Assembly (NCBI GenBank): GCA_022706175.1
Contig: JAKJDB010000171.1
Span: 1-6,350, forward strand
DNA length: 6,350 nt
Reading direction: 5' to 3'
Source of the DNA: Candidatus Zhuqueibacterota bacterium
Lineage (GTDB): Bacteria; KSB1; UBA2214
The notes under the pieces are model-generated. The model was not told the DNA's origin and made no database searches. It saw only the letters and a program-made list of their open reading frames with translations. The position numbers were made by a program, and so were the translations under genes. The first letter of the stretch is position 1, and each line of letters opens with the position of its first letter. Positions 2 to 6,350 of the stretch are shown in pieces.

Positions 2-1015
2 CAAGACCTGCCAGTGCACGATCTCAAAGATTATCCATTCCGGTATTATGCCCAGTACCCGGCCCTGGGATTTCTGTTCTGGCCGCCGCTATTTGCTTTT
101 ATCGAAGCCTTGTTTTTTCTCGCCGGCGGCATTAGTATCACCTCGGCCATCCTTGCCATCGGTTTCTTCTCCTGCCTGCTTGCGCTTTCTTTGTACGACA
201 TGGTAAAATTCAGCACCTCTCGCTTGTTCGCCTTTTTCGCCGTGCTTTTACTGCTGACCATTCAACAGGTCTCTTTGTATCTGAATGTGGTCATGTTGGA
301 CATCCCCATGCTGGGCATGAGCTGTCTTACAGTCGCTCTCTATTTGAGAATCACCAGAGCGTCAGGATCAGAATCCTGGGCTCAGTGGGCGTCCTTAGCC
401 TGTGTGGCGAGTATGGCGCTCTATGTCAAGCAAACCTGTTTTATCGTCCTGGCAGCTATTGCCATCGACTTTATCGTCAATCACCGGAAGTGGCTGAAAA
501 GCCCCCGCCTCTGGTTGGCCGTGGTTCTTTTCACCTTTTTGACCATGCCCCTCGCCGTCTACACGATAAAATTCGGACAAGCCAATATCGCCCAATCTCT
601 CGGCAAGCAAACAAATCTGATCATGCCTGGCTACCTTGGAATGCCGCGATGGAGCGTACAGAATTGGCTCTACTATGCTAAAATCATCTGCGGACAAATC
701 CATCCAATCCTGATCATCTCAGCGGCCGCTGGAATCCTTCACAGTTTGATCGATTCCGCCCGTTTCAAACAAGCCCTTTTGTGGATAGCGTGGATTTTGT
801 GTTTTTATCTCTTTTTTTCATATTTCGACAATAAAGCCCCGCGCTTTGCCATGCTCACTTACCCGCCGCTGGTCATCATTGGAGTAGAGTTCATCCACAG
901 GATGCTTAAAAAGTTAAAGCCATATATATATATATATACCATGCCTCATTGGCTTGGCCATTCCCATCGTCCTTGGCGTAATCCGCATTCCCAGCCACGA
1001 CCTTCGTGGATTTGA
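2..1015 (+). CDS. GT39/ArnT-like membrane glycosyltransferase, 5'-truncated by the window, N-terminal part of a frameshifted gene
   Basis: This is a polytopic membrane protein resembling GT39/PMT-type glycosyltransferases, which move a sugar from a polyprenyl-phosphate donor onto lipid or protein on the outer face of the inner membrane. The frame is open to the left edge; the GTG at 14 is not a convincing start, so the N-terminus, including the loop that normally carries the catalytic acidic residue, lies outside. Counting from the GTG, hydrophobic helices fall near 15-37, 40-62, 70-92, 95-112, 126-152, 165-184, 230-245, 254-270 and 279-293. Family-like segments are YAQYPALGFLFWPP, VVMLDIPMLGM, ALYVKQTCF and APRFAMLTYPPLVIIG. 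After KKLKP at 299-303 the frame enters an AT repeat (YIYIY), runs into an unrelated tail of about 25 residues and stops at 1015. The hydrophobic continuation lies in another frame. The region is visibly AT-richer than the minus-strand operon. The fold class is fairly sure; acceptor and donor are unknown. Confidence 0.72.
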   Translation, partial: QDLPVHDLKDYPFRYYAQYPALGFLFWPPLFAFIEALFFLAGGISITSAILAIGFFSCLLALSLYDMVKFSTSRLFAFFAVLLLLTIQQVSLYLNVVMLDIPMLGMSCLTVALYLRITRASGSESWAQWASLACVASMALYVKQTCFIVLAAIAIDFIVNHRKWLKSPRLWLAVVLFTFLTMPLAVYTIKFGQANIAQSLGKQTNLIMPGYLGMPRWSVQNWLYYAKIICGQIHPILIISAAAGILHSLIDSARFKQALLWIAWILCFYLFFSYFDNKAPRFAMLTYPPLVIIGVEFIHRMLKKLKPYIYIYTMPHWLGHSHRPWRNPHSQPRPSWI

Positions 1016-1478
1016 GGAAATGGAAGAGATCGTCGCCTCATTGAAGATCCAGTCGCAACAAAGTAATATCATCTATTTTGGCGAATTTCGTCAACCGTTT
1101 GTCTATTACGTTCGCATCGGCGATTTCAGCCGCCGGACTCACATTCTACGCGGAGACGATACGTTCAAGGAAGAGCCGGATCTAGATGCGATGTGTCATG
1201 ACTACAGGATACGCTATTTGGTGCTGGAAACCGGAAATCCTCAGCAAACCGCGCTCCATTCTCAAGTACAATCGAGTCTCCAGCAGAACAGGAATTTTTC
1301 GCTTCAGGAAGAGCGTCGTTTTTATGTTTACGAGCGATATCGGCAGGTCGAGATCTATAAATACTGTGGGGCCATGGCAGAAAAAATAAAACCAATCCGT
1401 CTGTCCTCAGATCTGCTTAATAATAGCGAATACATGATGAAAGAGAATGAAGCGATGGAGAAGAAATCTCCGGAATGA
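918..1478 (+). CDS. C-terminal part of the same glycosyltransferase, displaced in frame by the AT tract
   Basis: This frame opens after a TAA at 915-917, passes through the AT tract and continues to a TGA at 1476-1478. It first encodes a hydrophobic stretch (CLIGLAIPIVLGVIRIP), which makes a good last transmembrane helix. A soluble tail of about 150 residues follows, with alternating strand and helix character (NIIYFGEFRQPFVYYV, IRYLVLE, RRFYVYERYR), as in the extracytoplasmic C-terminal domains of many GT39-like proteins. The upstream frame lacks both parts, so the two pieces complete each other. A separate gene could begin at TTG 954 or at ATG 1020, which has GAGGA two bases upstream (close spacing), but a standalone protein beginning with half a helix is less likely. 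The final codons lie in a repeat-like inverted arm, so the natural C-terminus may have been replaced. The polar tail after VYERYR looks unconserved, though I could not compare homologues. Confidence 0.6.
   Translation, partial: SHIYIYIPCLIGLAIPIVLGVIRIPSHDLRGFEEMEEIVASLKIQSQQSNIIYFGEFRQPFVYYVRIGDFSRRTHILRGDDTFKEEPDLDAMCHDYRIRYLVLETGNPQQTALHSQVQSSLQQNRNFSLQEERRFYVYERYRQVEIYKYCGAMAEKIKPIRLSSDLLNNSEYMMKENEAMEKKSPE
922..938 (+). repeat. (AT)8.5 dinucleotide tract inside the glycosyltransferase gene, candidate phase-variation switch
   Basis: Seventeen bases alternate A and T without interruption at the exact point where the coding frame is lost. With the present count the upstream frame stops at 1015. 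With one unit fewer it would stop at TAA 979-981. With one unit more, or two fewer, it would enter the long frame ending at 1478. That is the three-state behaviour expected of a slipped-strand switch. In the ON state the tract would encode PYIYIYIP just before the last membrane helix, which is tolerable there. Dinucleotide tracts are known to switch genes in other bacteria, for example the TA repeats in the Haemophilus hif promoter region. A sequencing error or a fixed mutation remains possible. Confidence 0.85.
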
Positions 1479-2169: not shown

Positions 2170-4266
2170 CTACATCAGCCCTCTTTTTTTCAGCAGCGGT
2201 TCAATGCCCGGTTCGCGGCCGCGAAAGCGTTTATACAGGGTCATCGCCTCTTCGCTGCCGCCGGCGCCGAGGATGTGCTTGCGAAAGGCGGTTGCGTAGG
2301 TTTGATCAAAGAGGCTGCTCTCTTTAAAGGCCTGGAAGGCATCGGCATCAAGCACCTCTGCCCAGATGTAGGCGTAATAGCCCGAGGAATAGCCGCCGGA
2401 AAAAATATGGCGGAAATAGGGGCTGCGGTAGCGTGAAGCGATCTCCGGGATCAGGCCGATGCGCGCCAGCGACTGCCCTTCAAAGAGCGTGGCGTCATGT
2501 TCAATGGGTTCCCGCAGCGTGTGCCAGTCCATGTCCAGATAAGAAGCGGCGAGATATTCAACCGTGGCAAAGCCCTGGTTGAAATGGCCTGATCTTTCGA
2601 TTTTGGCGATCAGCTCGTCCGGCATGGCAGCGCCGCTCTGATAGTGTTTGGCATAGCTCCTGAGCACCTGTGGTTCAAACGCCCAGTTCTCCATGATCTG
2701 CGACGGCAGCTCGACAAAATCGCGGGCCACCGATGTGCCGGCGATCAGGGGATAGGTGCAGTCGGAGAGCAGGCCGTGCAGGGCATGGCCGAACTCGTGG
2801 AACATGGTCTCGACCTCATCGAGACTGAGCAGCGCCGGCGTGTCGGCTGTGGGTTTGCTGAAATTGCCGACATTGACGATCACCGGCATCTGCCGGCCGC
2901 CGAGTTTCTGCTGGCCGCGGTATTCGCTCATCCAGGCGCCGCCGCGTTTGCTGGCGCGGGGAAAATAATCCACCATCAATACGCCGATGGGCCGGCCGTC
3001 CGCCTCTTTAACCTCAAAGGCGCGGACCTCCGGATGATACACCGGTATATCCTTGCGCTCCGTGAAGGTGATGCCCCACAGCTTTTGCGCCACGCCAAAA
3101 ACGCCGCTGCGTACGTTCTCCAGCTTGAAATAGGGCCGCAACGCCTCTTCGTCCAGAGCATATTTTTCTTTTTTCACTTTTTCCGCATAGTACCACCAAT
3201 CCCAGGGCTGCAGTTGGAATCCGCCTTTTTCCCGATCAATGATCGCCTGCATATCAGCGACCTCCTGGCGGCTGCGCTCCTTAGCCGGCCGCCACAGTTG
3301 ATCCAGCAGGGCGTAAACGTTTTCCGGCTTTTTCGCCATATTCTCTTCAAGCACATAGTCCGCATGACTGGGATAGCCGAGCAGATTGGCTTTGCGTACG
3401 CGCAGCGCGGCAATTTTGCTCAGGATCTTTTTATTGTCATTTTCATTGTTTTGATCCCCACGCTGAAGGTAGGCCTCATAGATCTGCCGGCGCAACCGGC
3501 GGTTCTCCGCGTATTGCAGAAAAGGAAAAATGCTGGGCGCCTGCAAAGTGAAAACCCATTTGCCGGCCTGGCCGCGTTCCGCAGCCGCTTCGGCCGCTGC
3601 GGAGACCATGGCCGGCGGCAGGCCGGCCAGATCGCCGGGCTGGTCGATGACCAGGCTGTAATTGTTGGTCTCCTTGAGCACATGGTCGCCGAACTTGAGC
3701 TCGAGCAGAGCCAGCTCCTGATTGATGGCGCGCAGCTGCTCCTGTTGCGCTTTCTCCAGATTGGCGCCGCCGCGGACAAACTCGCGATAGTATCGGGTAA
3801 GCACGGTCTCTTGTTCCGCGGTCAGGCCGAGACTCGCCTTTTGCTCATAGACCGCCTTGATGCGCTGAAACAGCTTGGCGTTGAGGCGGATGTCATCGCC
3901 ATGGCTGGAGCGCAGCGGCGACGCCTCTTCGGCGATCTTTTGCAGCGCATCGCTGGTCAGCGCCGAGGTCATGTTGTCGAACACATTGGTGACTCGAGTG
4001 AGCACACGGCCGGAGAGTTCGAGCGCATCGATGGTGTTGGCAAAGGTCGGAGGCTGCGGATTGTCAGCGATGGCGGCGATCTCCTGCTGGTGCAGACGAA
4101 TGCCCTCCTTGATCGCCGGCAGATAATGCTCGTTCTTGATCTTGCTGAAGGGCGGAACACCAAAGGGGGTCTTGAACTCTTTGAGCAGCGGATTTTCCTC
4201 TGCCACTGCCATGTTCAGGTTCACACAACAGATCGAGCACAACAGCGCAATCGCAATCTCTTTCAT
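2170..4266 (-). CDS. dcp: Exported M3-family peptidyl-dipeptidase (Dcp-like zinc metallopeptidase)
   Basis: M3A metallopeptidases of the Dcp/oligopeptidase A group hydrolyse short peptides; Dcp releases C-terminal dipeptides. Numbered from the ATG at 4266 (698 residues, a usual Dcp length), the zinc site HEFGH is at 490-494 and the third ligand is Glu519 in DFVELPSQ. The spacing of 29 residues from the first His matches the family. The substrate-side motif FSGGYSSGYYAYIWAE lies in the C-terminal quarter. The N-terminus is a signal peptide: MKE, a hydrophobic core, then AVA before EENP (likely cut after residue 22), so the enzyme is probably periplasmic or otherwise exported. No good lipobox is visible. 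An in-frame ATG at 4278 would add four residues, but GAGGA sits five bases before the 4266 ATG and no such site precedes 4278. The gene follows the small membrane protein gene by about 60 bases on the same strand without a visible terminator, so co-transcription is likely. Dcp rather than OpdA is judged by overall resemblance. Confidence 0.93.
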   Translation of the reverse strand: MKEIAIALLCSICCVNLNMAVAEENPLLKEFKTPFGVPPFSKIKNEHYLPAIKEGIRLHQQEIAAIADNPQPPTFANTIDALELSGRVLTRVTNVFDNMTSALTSDALQKIAEEASPLRSSHGDDIRLNAKLFQRIKAVYEQKASLGLTAEQETVLTRYYREFVRGGANLEKAQQEQLRAINQELALLELKFGDHVLKETNNYSLVIDQPGDLAGLPPAMVSAAAEAAAERGQAGKWVFTLQAPSIFPFLQYAENRRLRRQIYEAYLQRGDQNNENDNKKILSKIAALRVRKANLLGYPSHADYVLEENMAKKPENVYALLDQLWRPAKERSRQEVADMQAIIDREKGGFQLQPWDWWYYAEKVKKEKYALDEEALRPYFKLENVRSGVFGVAQKLWGITFTERKDIPVYHPEVRAFEVKEADGRPIGVLMVDYFPRASKRGGAWMSEYRGQQKLGGRQMPVIVNVGNFSKPTADTPALLSLDEVETMFHEFGHALHGLLSDCTYPLIAGTSVARDFVELPSQIMENWAFEPQVLRSYAKHYQSGAAMPDELIAKIERSGHFNQGFATVEYLAASYLDMDWHTLREPIEHDATLFEGQSLARIGLIPEIASRYRSPYFRHIFSGGYSSGYYAYIWAEVLDADAFQAFKESSLFDQTYATAFRKHILGAGGSEEAMTLYKRFRGREPGIEPLLKKRGLM

Positions 4267-4271
4267 GGATT

Positions 4272-4276
4272 TCCTC
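4272..4276 (-). promoter_or_regulatory. Shine-Dalgarno site deciding the dcp start
   Basis: On the minus strand the sequence reads ATGAGGAAATCCATG. GAGGA lies five bases before the second ATG (4266) and overlaps the first ATG (4278), which itself has only AACCTATT upstream. This favours translation from 4266. Confidence 0.7.
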
Positions 4277-4325
4277 ATAATAGGTTAATTGTTGAATCCT
4301 GTGTGGCCATCCCTGTTTTCCCATC

Positions 4326-4565
4326 CTATGACTCTGAACGTTTTGTCCGCGGCCAAAACTTGATCACATAAAAAAATCCCAGGATCAGCAACAGCACACC
4401 CCACCAGATGTCCGCGTGCAGACTCCATAGCCGCACTCGCGCCTCCACCGGCGGCGGCGACAGCCAATAGAACAGACCGGCAGCCAGGATCAACAAACCG
4501 TAGATCAGCACAATTCCACCGATAAAAAACCAGATCGGTATTTGTTTTTCATAATGGCTTTCCAT
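4326..4565 (-). CDS. Small two-helix membrane protein coupled to the symporter gene
   Basis: This 79-residue protein has a short polar N-terminus (MESHYEKQIP), a first membrane helix (about 11-33, WFFIGGIVLIYGLLILAAGL), a short linker with the proline run SPPPVEARVR, a second helix (about 51-68, IWWGVLLLILGFFYVIKFW) and a basic tail ending RTKRSES. I do not recognise a named family. It does not look like the DUF485 partner of acetate permeases, whose conserved patterns are absent. Its start lies seven bases after the symporter stop, and its ribosome binding site overlaps that stop, so the two are almost certainly made together. Small two-helix proteins beside secondary transporters can be accessory or stabilising subunits; this role is inferred from context. 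Both helices and the strong start site make it a real gene rather than a chance frame. Confidence 0.8.
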   Translation of the reverse strand: MESHYEKQIPIWFFIGGIVLIYGLLILAAGLFYWLSPPPVEARVRLWSLHADIWWGVLLLILGFFYVIKFWPRTKRSES

Positions 4566-4569
4566 AACT

Positions 4570-4574
4570 TCCTC
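4570..4574 (-). promoter_or_regulatory. Shine-Dalgarno site overlapping the symporter stop codon
   Basis: The minus strand reads TGAGGAAGTTATG. The symporter TGA (4575-4573) overlaps GAGGA, which is four bases before the ATG of the 79-residue protein. Ribosomes finishing the symporter end on the start site of the next gene, the usual arrangement for translational coupling. Confidence 0.75.
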
Positions 4575-6350
4575 ACCAGAAAATTAGATTGACGGCGATC
4601 AGCACCGACGCGACCACGCACGCCCAAAAGACGGGCTTCTGGTACCATGGACAGGCGGTCTCTTGGGGCCGCGGCGTAAGCCCCATCACCAGATTCTTCA
4701 GCTCTGCATCGGATTTGGGCTTGGTAAAAAGGCTCACCACCACGGTAATCAGCACGCACACCACCAAGGACCACCAGCCGCTGTACATGTTCACGGCCAT
4801 GGGCTTTGCCTTTTCTGAACGCGCGATGACCTTGGCATGATCCGGATTGAACGCAGCCGGCGCAAACCGCTTGGAAATAAAAGTCGAATGCACCTCCACC
4901 CCGGGTTTCAGGTAGACCAGAACGCCCTCCACGCCGAATTGATGTTTTTCCCTGGAATCAGCCATCATCACCTCGGGCGCGAGGATCTGCAACGGAGTGC
5001 TGCCGTTTTTCATCGGCAGCGTGACCGGCAGCGCCACAGGCGCGTCTTGCACCGTGATCGCTCGTCCGGACTCGAATCCCGACACCGGTACATTGACCAG
5101 ATCCACACGGCCGCTTTCGACCACGATCAGCGACGGCGCTTCCGAGCCGCCCTGTTCCATCGTCTCCACAGTCACCACCGCTCCCGGCGCCAGCGTCGCC
5201 TTGGGCTGCGGTTTATAGCCGTCCGGAAAGGTGTGCACATACGCCCACATGCTGATGGAGAAAAGAATGGCGATTAAAAATCCCCAGAAACCGCCGGCGG
5301 GCGTCGCCCGCTTCCACAACATGCCGAGGATCACGGTGCCGAATAAAGGCACGATGAAAAAGAAAACCAGGACCTGAAGATACTCGAGGATGTTGGAAAA
5401 GTAGAACAGAGAGTAAGCGGTAAGAATAGAGATAAGAATGCCGATCACCGAACTCCAGCGCCCCATGGCCAGATAATGCCGATCCGTGGCCTTTTTGTTG
5501 AGCAGAGGTTTATAGACATCATAGGTCCAGACCGTGGCAAAGGCGCTGACGTTGCCGGCCATGCCGGACATGAAACCGGCGATCATGGCCGTCACGCCTA
5601 GCCCGAGCAGACCCGGCCCCAGATACTGACCCATGAGCAACGGCAGGACATCATTGAACGTATGATGGGTGATGCCCGCGCGCGGATCGCTCTCCGGCAC
5701 CAGAACCATGGTGGAGCCGTCGGGATTGAACAGCACCGCCAACCCCAGCAGGCCGGGAATGGTGACGATGAGCGGCACCAGCATTTTGAGCGCCGCACCG
5801 ATGAGCGTTCCGTTCTGCGCCGAACGCAGGTCCTTGGCCACAATGACGCGCTGAACCTGGAGAAAATCCGTGCACCAGTAACCGAATCCCACCGCAATGC
5901 CAAAGCCAAAGATCATCCCGAACCAGTCGATGCCCATGGGATTGCTGGCAAAAGAGCCCAGATTGCGCCACAGGCTGGTAAAGTCGGCGTTCTGCACCGT
6001 CGGGTGGATGACCGCGACGTTTTTCTGTATGGTGGCCATCAGGTTGTTCCAGCCGCCGGCGTCGATAATACCGAGGATGGGGATGAGCAGCGACCCCAAC
6101 CAGATGAGAAAAAACTGCAGCACTTCGTTGAACACCGCGGACAGCAGCCCGCCCAAAGTCACATAGATGGCCACGGTGACCGAGGCCACCCAGATGCTGA
6201 CGTTCATGTCCCAGCCCAGCAGCAGGTTTAAAATTTTCGCCATGGCGAACATGCTGGCGCCGCTGACCGCCACGGTCATCACGCTGAACGAGATGCCGGC
6301 GACCGAGCGCGCCCCTTCCCCATAGCGCATCTGCAGATAGCCGGGAACCG
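4573..6350 (-). CDS. Sodium:solute symporter (SSS/SLC5 family) with an inserted polar domain; N-terminus outside window
   Basis: This is a sodium-coupled secondary transporter of the SSS/SLC5 (SGLT-like) family. The frame is open to the right edge, beginning VPGYLQMRYGEGAR, a family segment that normally follows the first helices; the Met at 6330 is therefore internal. Numbering from that Met, helices lie near 13-38, 45-65, 70-90, 136-153, 180-201, 238-268, 291-311, 316-338, 346-365, 516-536 and 563-583. Family hallmarks are TDFLQVQRVIVAKDLRSAQ (154-172) and the helix entering TVWTYDVYK (266-274), which corresponds to the sodium-site helix before the D-(I/V)-Y motif. Between helix 346-365 and the AKPMAVNMYSGWWS segment (507-520) sits an additional polar, beta-rich stretch of roughly 130 residues. 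The tail SLFTKPKSDAELKNLVMGLT matches bacterial members of the family. The substrate cannot be told from the sequence. It is the first visible gene of the operon; the promoter would be outside the window. Confidence 0.92.
   Translation of the reverse strand, partial: VPGYLQMRYGEGARSVAGISFSVMTVAVSGASMFAMAKILNLLLGWDMNVSIWVASVTVAIYVTLGGLLSAVFNEVLQFFLIWLGSLLIPILGIIDAGGWNNLMATIQKNVAVIHPTVQNADFTSLWRNLGSFASNPMGIDWFGMIFGFGIAVGFGYWCTDFLQVQRVIVAKDLRSAQNGTLIGAALKMLVPLIVTIPGLLGLAVLFNPDGSTMVLVPESDPRAGITHHTFNDVLPLLMGQYLGPGLLGLGVTAMIAGFMSGMAGNVSAFATVWTYDVYKPLLNKKATDRHYLAMGRWSSVIGILISILTAYSLFYFSNILEYLQVLVFFFIVPLFGTVILGMLWKRATPAGGFWGFLIAILFSISMWAYVHTFPDGYKPQPKATLAPGAVVTVETMEQGGSEAPSLIVVESGRVDLVNVPVSGFESGRAITVQDAPVALPVTLPMKNGSTPLQILAPEVMMADSREKHQFGVEGVLVYLKPGVEVHSTFISKRFAPAAFNPDHAKVIARSEKAKPMAVNMYSGWWSLVVCVLITVVVSLFTKPKSDAELKNLVMGLTPRPQETACPWYQKPVFWACVVASVLIAVNLIFW

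Follow-up and report, generated by a model that had tools for sequence, protein, structure and literature searches.

The window analysed here (the whole stretch of 6,350 nucleotides) carries a membrane glycosyltransferase gene whose reading frame is broken at a pure AT dinucleotide tract, and a second record of the same gene reads that tract as two units longer. The best explanation, and one that we regard as moderately probable, is that the tract is an SSR contingency (phase-variation) locus in a GT-C glycosyltransferase. Replication slippage would add or remove AT units in the transferase microsatellite, such that one length class in three would give the complete enzyme (ON) and the other two would meet a stop within 25 residues past the tract (OFF); the OFF forms would end short of the last hydrophobic stretch and of the soluble domain at the C-terminus, and the locus would toggle sugar addition on lipid-linked or envelope glycans. 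That the locus is prone to slippage is well supported; we infer that slippage is the cause, that the change is reversible, that ON cells occur, that the OFF form loses activity, that the enzyme has a role in the envelope, and that switching is of benefit.

The 3' part of the transferase gene occupies positions 2-1478 of the forward strand when its two frames are joined. Frame 2, which encodes the upstream part, is already open where the window begins and meets its first stop at 1013-1015, and frame 3, which encodes the downstream part, is open after a stop at 915-917 and ends at 1476-1478; because of the stops at 915-917 and 1013-1015 the two can be joined only in the 95 nt of 918-1012 on the forward strand, where both are open. 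A scan of the window located a perfect 17-nt run, ATATATATATATATATA, at 922-938, a pure (AT)8.5 repeat that begins at the fifth base of this corridor and lies wholly within it, as would be expected of a switch, and that is the presumed slippage site as well as the frame junction; the second-longest dinucleotide run in the window is 8 nt. A preliminary description had placed an (AT)8.5 tract at the frame junction, proposed three reading states and taken the window for the OFF state, and all of this was recovered on recomputation: at the present length the frame stops at 1013-1015 after a 25-residue off-frame tail, one unit fewer leads to a native stop at 979-981, and the gain of one unit or the loss of two yields an unbroken frame ending at 1478.

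The coding quality of the sequence on both sides of the tract bears on an alternative to which we give limited though appreciable weight, namely that the gene is decaying: a dispensable transferase whose tract slipped out of frame once, with later changes in length being neutral. Decay fits poorly with the lack of any second stop across about 490 codons (312 + 179 codons flanking the junction), which favours the switch, and with the position of the break in frame, which falls on the most slippage-prone sequence of the window. Nor is it favoured by codon usage, scored in segments of 120 nt after training on the two neighbouring genes. Frame 2 leads in the segments whose starts lie between 601 and 841, and frame 3 takes over for starts between 901 and 1381, though frame 1 comes almost level with it at 1201-1320; over 939-1475 as a whole, with stops omitted, frame 3 scores -1.3 versus -60.9 and -94.0 for the other two frames. 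The coding score is thus intact on both sides of the tract, and its maintenance in the C part counts for the switch.

Homologues indicate what the undivided protein looks like. A search with the joined protein, in which 7,996 candidates were scored, yielded 13 proteins, all of them representatives of 90% clusters. The nearest full-length homologues (P0002-P0006; 525-549 aa, 33-39% identical) all run past the junction into sequence corresponding to the downstream frame, five out of five, and their C-termini align with the C part, in keeping with a switch; P0008, P0009 and P0010-P0013 are also full-length and are more distant. One further protein, P0007 (311 aa, on a 5,633-bp contig, 35-36% identical), ends early, at a place other than the window's break. 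At each of the eight best genome loci (L001-L008) a frame of 528-635 codons from stop to stop spans the junction region, although at L005 and L008 the tblastn match extends beyond the stop of that frame, and the translated frames of all eight carry the same C-part motifs as the window. Since the homologues and these eight loci continue through the junction, the family normally has the joined frame, and the earlier suggestion that this frame is full-length is upheld, P0002-P0006 not ending near residue 310. The C-terminal part can accordingly be assigned to 939-1478 (forward strand, frame 3) from homologue C-termini, motifs and coding score, and comprises the last hydrophobic stretch and a soluble domain. 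Strongly conserved residues, defined from 12 of the 24 homologues in alignment A3 with columns of fewer than 10 letters dropped, are kept in the window at 67 of 81 positions on the upstream side of the junction and at 23 of 27 on the downstream side. Together, the computed states and the homologues show that changes in unit number would switch a complete frame on and off.

The N-terminal part (2-1015, forward strand, cut by the window start) matches the PMT_2 family of GT-C glycosyltransferases (PF13231; E 1.3e-12, 48.6 bits against a cut-off of 26.1), and the second record, P0001, adds 49 N-terminal residues beyond the window start. Neither the N nor the C piece matched an NCBIfam family at E 0.1, and full-length P0002 had one NCBIfam match, far under the family cut-off. 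A structural model of P0002 (mean pLDDT 89.4, pTM 0.91) has the GT-C fold, and in this model, which is of P0002 and not of the window protein, the tract maps to the loop after helix 336-361. With the tract in that loop, OFF forms would be predicted to lose a short predicted helix, 372-382, for which the model confidence is only about 57-72, together with some 140 residues that form a soluble alpha/beta domain; the OFF form may amount to a shortened membrane protein, not to a null. The only PDB profile match was to ArnT of Cupriavidus metallidurans (5ezm; E 1.5e-14), with the N part only, covering positions 19-314 of 465 and leaving the C domain outside, and the top Foldseek match of P0002 was also an ArnT (5f15; E 1.9e-8, TM 0.57), with ALG12 and oligosaccharyltransferases ranking close behind. 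The transferase resembles ArnT, the lipid A L-Ara4N transferase, in its GT-C membrane fold, but the fold alignment of P0002 with ArnT has 14% identity and an rmsd above 10.

The most direct evidence of variation is P0001, a 376-aa protein from a cluster of four members, encoded on a 47,069-bp contig and representing the same gene as that in the window. Up to the tract its residues and those of the window reading are the same; its ending is ...KPYIYIYIYHASLAWPFPSSLA, compared with ...KPYIYIYTMPHWLG... for the tract length in the window. The P0001 ending matches letter for letter the computed reading with two extra AT units, and its 13-residue off-frame tail is a translation of the unchanged flank, a point for the switch; it follows that the tract has 8.5 units in the window and 10.5 in P0001. 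Since the difference is one of whole units with constant flanks, the tract is length-polymorphic in whole units, as slippage predicts and as is characteristic of contingency genes. These are two lengths only, which may come from separate samples or from separate assemblies of one sample. We do not take P0001 as proof of another sample, the one certainty being that its letters exclude the window's tract length.

Both lengths are OFF and flank an ON length, and this circumstance can be read in more than one way. It would suit an artefact in which most cells have an in-frame tract and the repeat was sized wrongly during assembly, as 8.5 and as 10.5, as would the mere fact that two records differ in tract length. 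We consider such an error improbable, given that the difference consists of whole units only, that 7-nt T runs at 812 and 2184 sit in open frames, and that a tract of 17-21 nt is far shorter than ordinary sequencing reads. The long neighbouring genes are also open throughout, and it follows that the assembly is not generally error-prone, a further point for the switch: these are a Dcp-like M3 peptidase of 702 codons (2170-4278, reverse strand) and a sodium/solute symporter of at least 591 codons (4573-6348, reverse strand), the latter still open at the window end. Very improbable, in our view, is recoding, in which the ribosome (by a two-base slip, UAU/AUA) or RNA polymerase slips to make some full-length enzyme from an OFF genotype, the tract being a leaky expression element. 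Within a run of AU, a shift by two bases would indeed leave UAU and AUA codons fully paired; a recoding site has no need, however, of a tract whose length differs between records, and none of the eight homologous genes checked at L001-L008 has a dinucleotide run of more than 8 nt, an observation that also counts against a switch.

The same two OFF records also lend something to decay, as does the result that no ON (full-length) copy belonging to this species or a close one was present among the 90% cluster representatives covered by the joined-protein search, where the sole close match was P0001 itself, with its four members. The preliminary description had proposed a phase-variable switch, and that proposal is strengthened by the whole-unit difference of 8.5 versus 10.5 and weakened by this missing ON copy. 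Elsewhere, the same gene was absent among 48 homologous loci of the genome collection (the eight best being 30-38% identical), the tract with its flank had no matches in viral contigs, and a search for short fragments in relatives, using the 162 residues before the tract as query, gave 57 candidates and none at E <=0.001; in this search and in that with the C part, length limits excluded any full-length copy.

The C-part search gave three matches from 29 candidates. P0014 is the window's own ORF from the TTG at 954, with six members and on a 1,502-bp contig, where it stands as a separate short ORF. P0015 (152 aa, 68% identical) is a stand-alone C part on an 864-bp contig. We rejected P0015 as proof of a conserved frameshift, as its separate ORF could reflect the contig end. 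Separate C-part ORFs in P0014 and P0015 would be in line with decay, subject to the same reservation about the contig end for P0015. The third match, P0016 (GX408_02425, 127 aa), has the first residues, as found in P0001, joined to the last 100 or so, with about 400 missing; judging from its sequence it is a broken remnant of the gene from a relative, barring a mistake in assembly. That a relative retains only the two ends of the gene again speaks for decay, and its large internal deletion, together with the late position of the tract, about two-thirds along the transferase gene, weakens the adaptive reading. An AT dinucleotide repeat is likewise described, in an excerpt from one study, for the Neisseria glycosylation gene pglP undergoing pseudogenization (PMC6959607). 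Pulling the other way, the differences between the window and P0015 avoid conserved columns (4/34 conserved versus 34/96 variable; Fisher p 0.009, one of two such tests and uncorrected), which counts for the switch and against decay; comparison of the window with P0016 gave no conservation excess (2/15 conserved versus 10/68 variable columns, p 1.0), which counts against the switch.

Weighing these observations we still prefer a switch, and the rarity of the tract is relevant to that preference. A first-order Markov model of the window predicts 9e-9 such runs per window, an estimate that ignores the growth of repeats through slippage; because repeats do grow in this way, an empirical rate is the fairer measure. 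The identical 17-nt pattern occurs at one locus in 10 homologue-carrying genomes (10 of the 48 loci having been sampled) and at three loci, each in a different genome, among 99 genomes belonging to one phylum. Pooled, with one genome common to both sets, this amounts to four loci in 108 distinct genomes and 495.5 Mb (summed from rounded sizes), a rate of about 5e-5 per 6.35 kb, in genomes that are not known to be closely related to the window. Of these four loci one, L049, is probably outside a gene, since no open frame of more than 228 nt crosses the tract. In the 662,281 bases that make up the 48 homologue-bearing loci, dinucleotide runs reach 12 nt at most. The earlier view that the tract is unlikely by chance therefore holds at the empirical rate as well.

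The surroundings of the gene have features of their own. The transferase (2-1478) has a GC content of 47-49% versus about 58% in its two neighbours (2170-6348); it is possibly of foreign origin, and the low value is also a point in favour of decay. Between the transferase and the next gene lie 691 bases, and the stretch 1479-2125 contains three imperfect 90-nt copies of a sequence, 88% and 99% identical to the reference copy and spaced by 292 and 206, the longest two-copy match when 1400-2400 was examined being 223 nt at 89%. This sequence has no Rfam match at gathering thresholds, and is possibly a dispersed intergenic repeat.

SSR contingency loci that act by intragenic frameshift are well known, for example in the surface-sugar genes of Neisseria, Campylobacter and Haemophilus, and most of the repeat switches known from within glycosyltransferase genes consist of poly-G/C or tetranucleotide tracts. 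The window shares with these a pure short-unit repeat within a glycosyltransferase gene, the property that unit changes shift the downstream frame, and a difference of whole units between the window and P0001; it differs in that its tract is an AT dinucleotide late in the gene, with no ON allele among the records searched. Intragenic dinucleotide switches are thinly documented. A parallel in composition is the (TA)9-11 tract of hifA/hifB in Haemophilus influenzae, described in an excerpt as variable in length and proposed to alter promoter spacing (PMC2651432), which is likewise an AT/TA dinucleotide of similar and varying length, but lies in a promoter whereas that of the window lies in coding sequence. 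A Neisseria survey, in the excerpt cited, reports no change of repeat number at dinucleotide tracts and, for want of evidence, did not consider them further, though it notes that in other Gram-negatives tracts of this type do facilitate phase variation (PMC5953494). With 8.5 and 10.5 units, the two records lie above the dinucleotide cut-offs given in excerpts from searches of Neisseria (8 or more units; PMC5953494) and Campylobacter (6 or more units; PMC6321876), and thus in the range treated as hypermutable. Poly(A) and poly(T) tracts, by an excerpt of a further study, sit nearer 5' ends (PMC2831843), which counts against a switch here. Among the literature matches listed, judged by title and opening of the abstract, none describes a glycosyltransferase from an uncultured lineage that is switched by frameshift at an AT dinucleotide tract.

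In summary, the switch remains the interpretation we prefer for this locus. A more specific proposal, possible though doubtful, is that a probably uncultured environmental bacterium, not one of the much-studied mucosal pathogens, runs a late coding-region AT-dinucleotide switch on a GT-C transferase, in which OFF cells would keep a near-complete membrane domain and lose the soluble domain at the C-terminus. Differences in tract length between public records, such as that seen here, would offer a cheap entry to the question of how frequent surface-sugar switching is outside pathogens.
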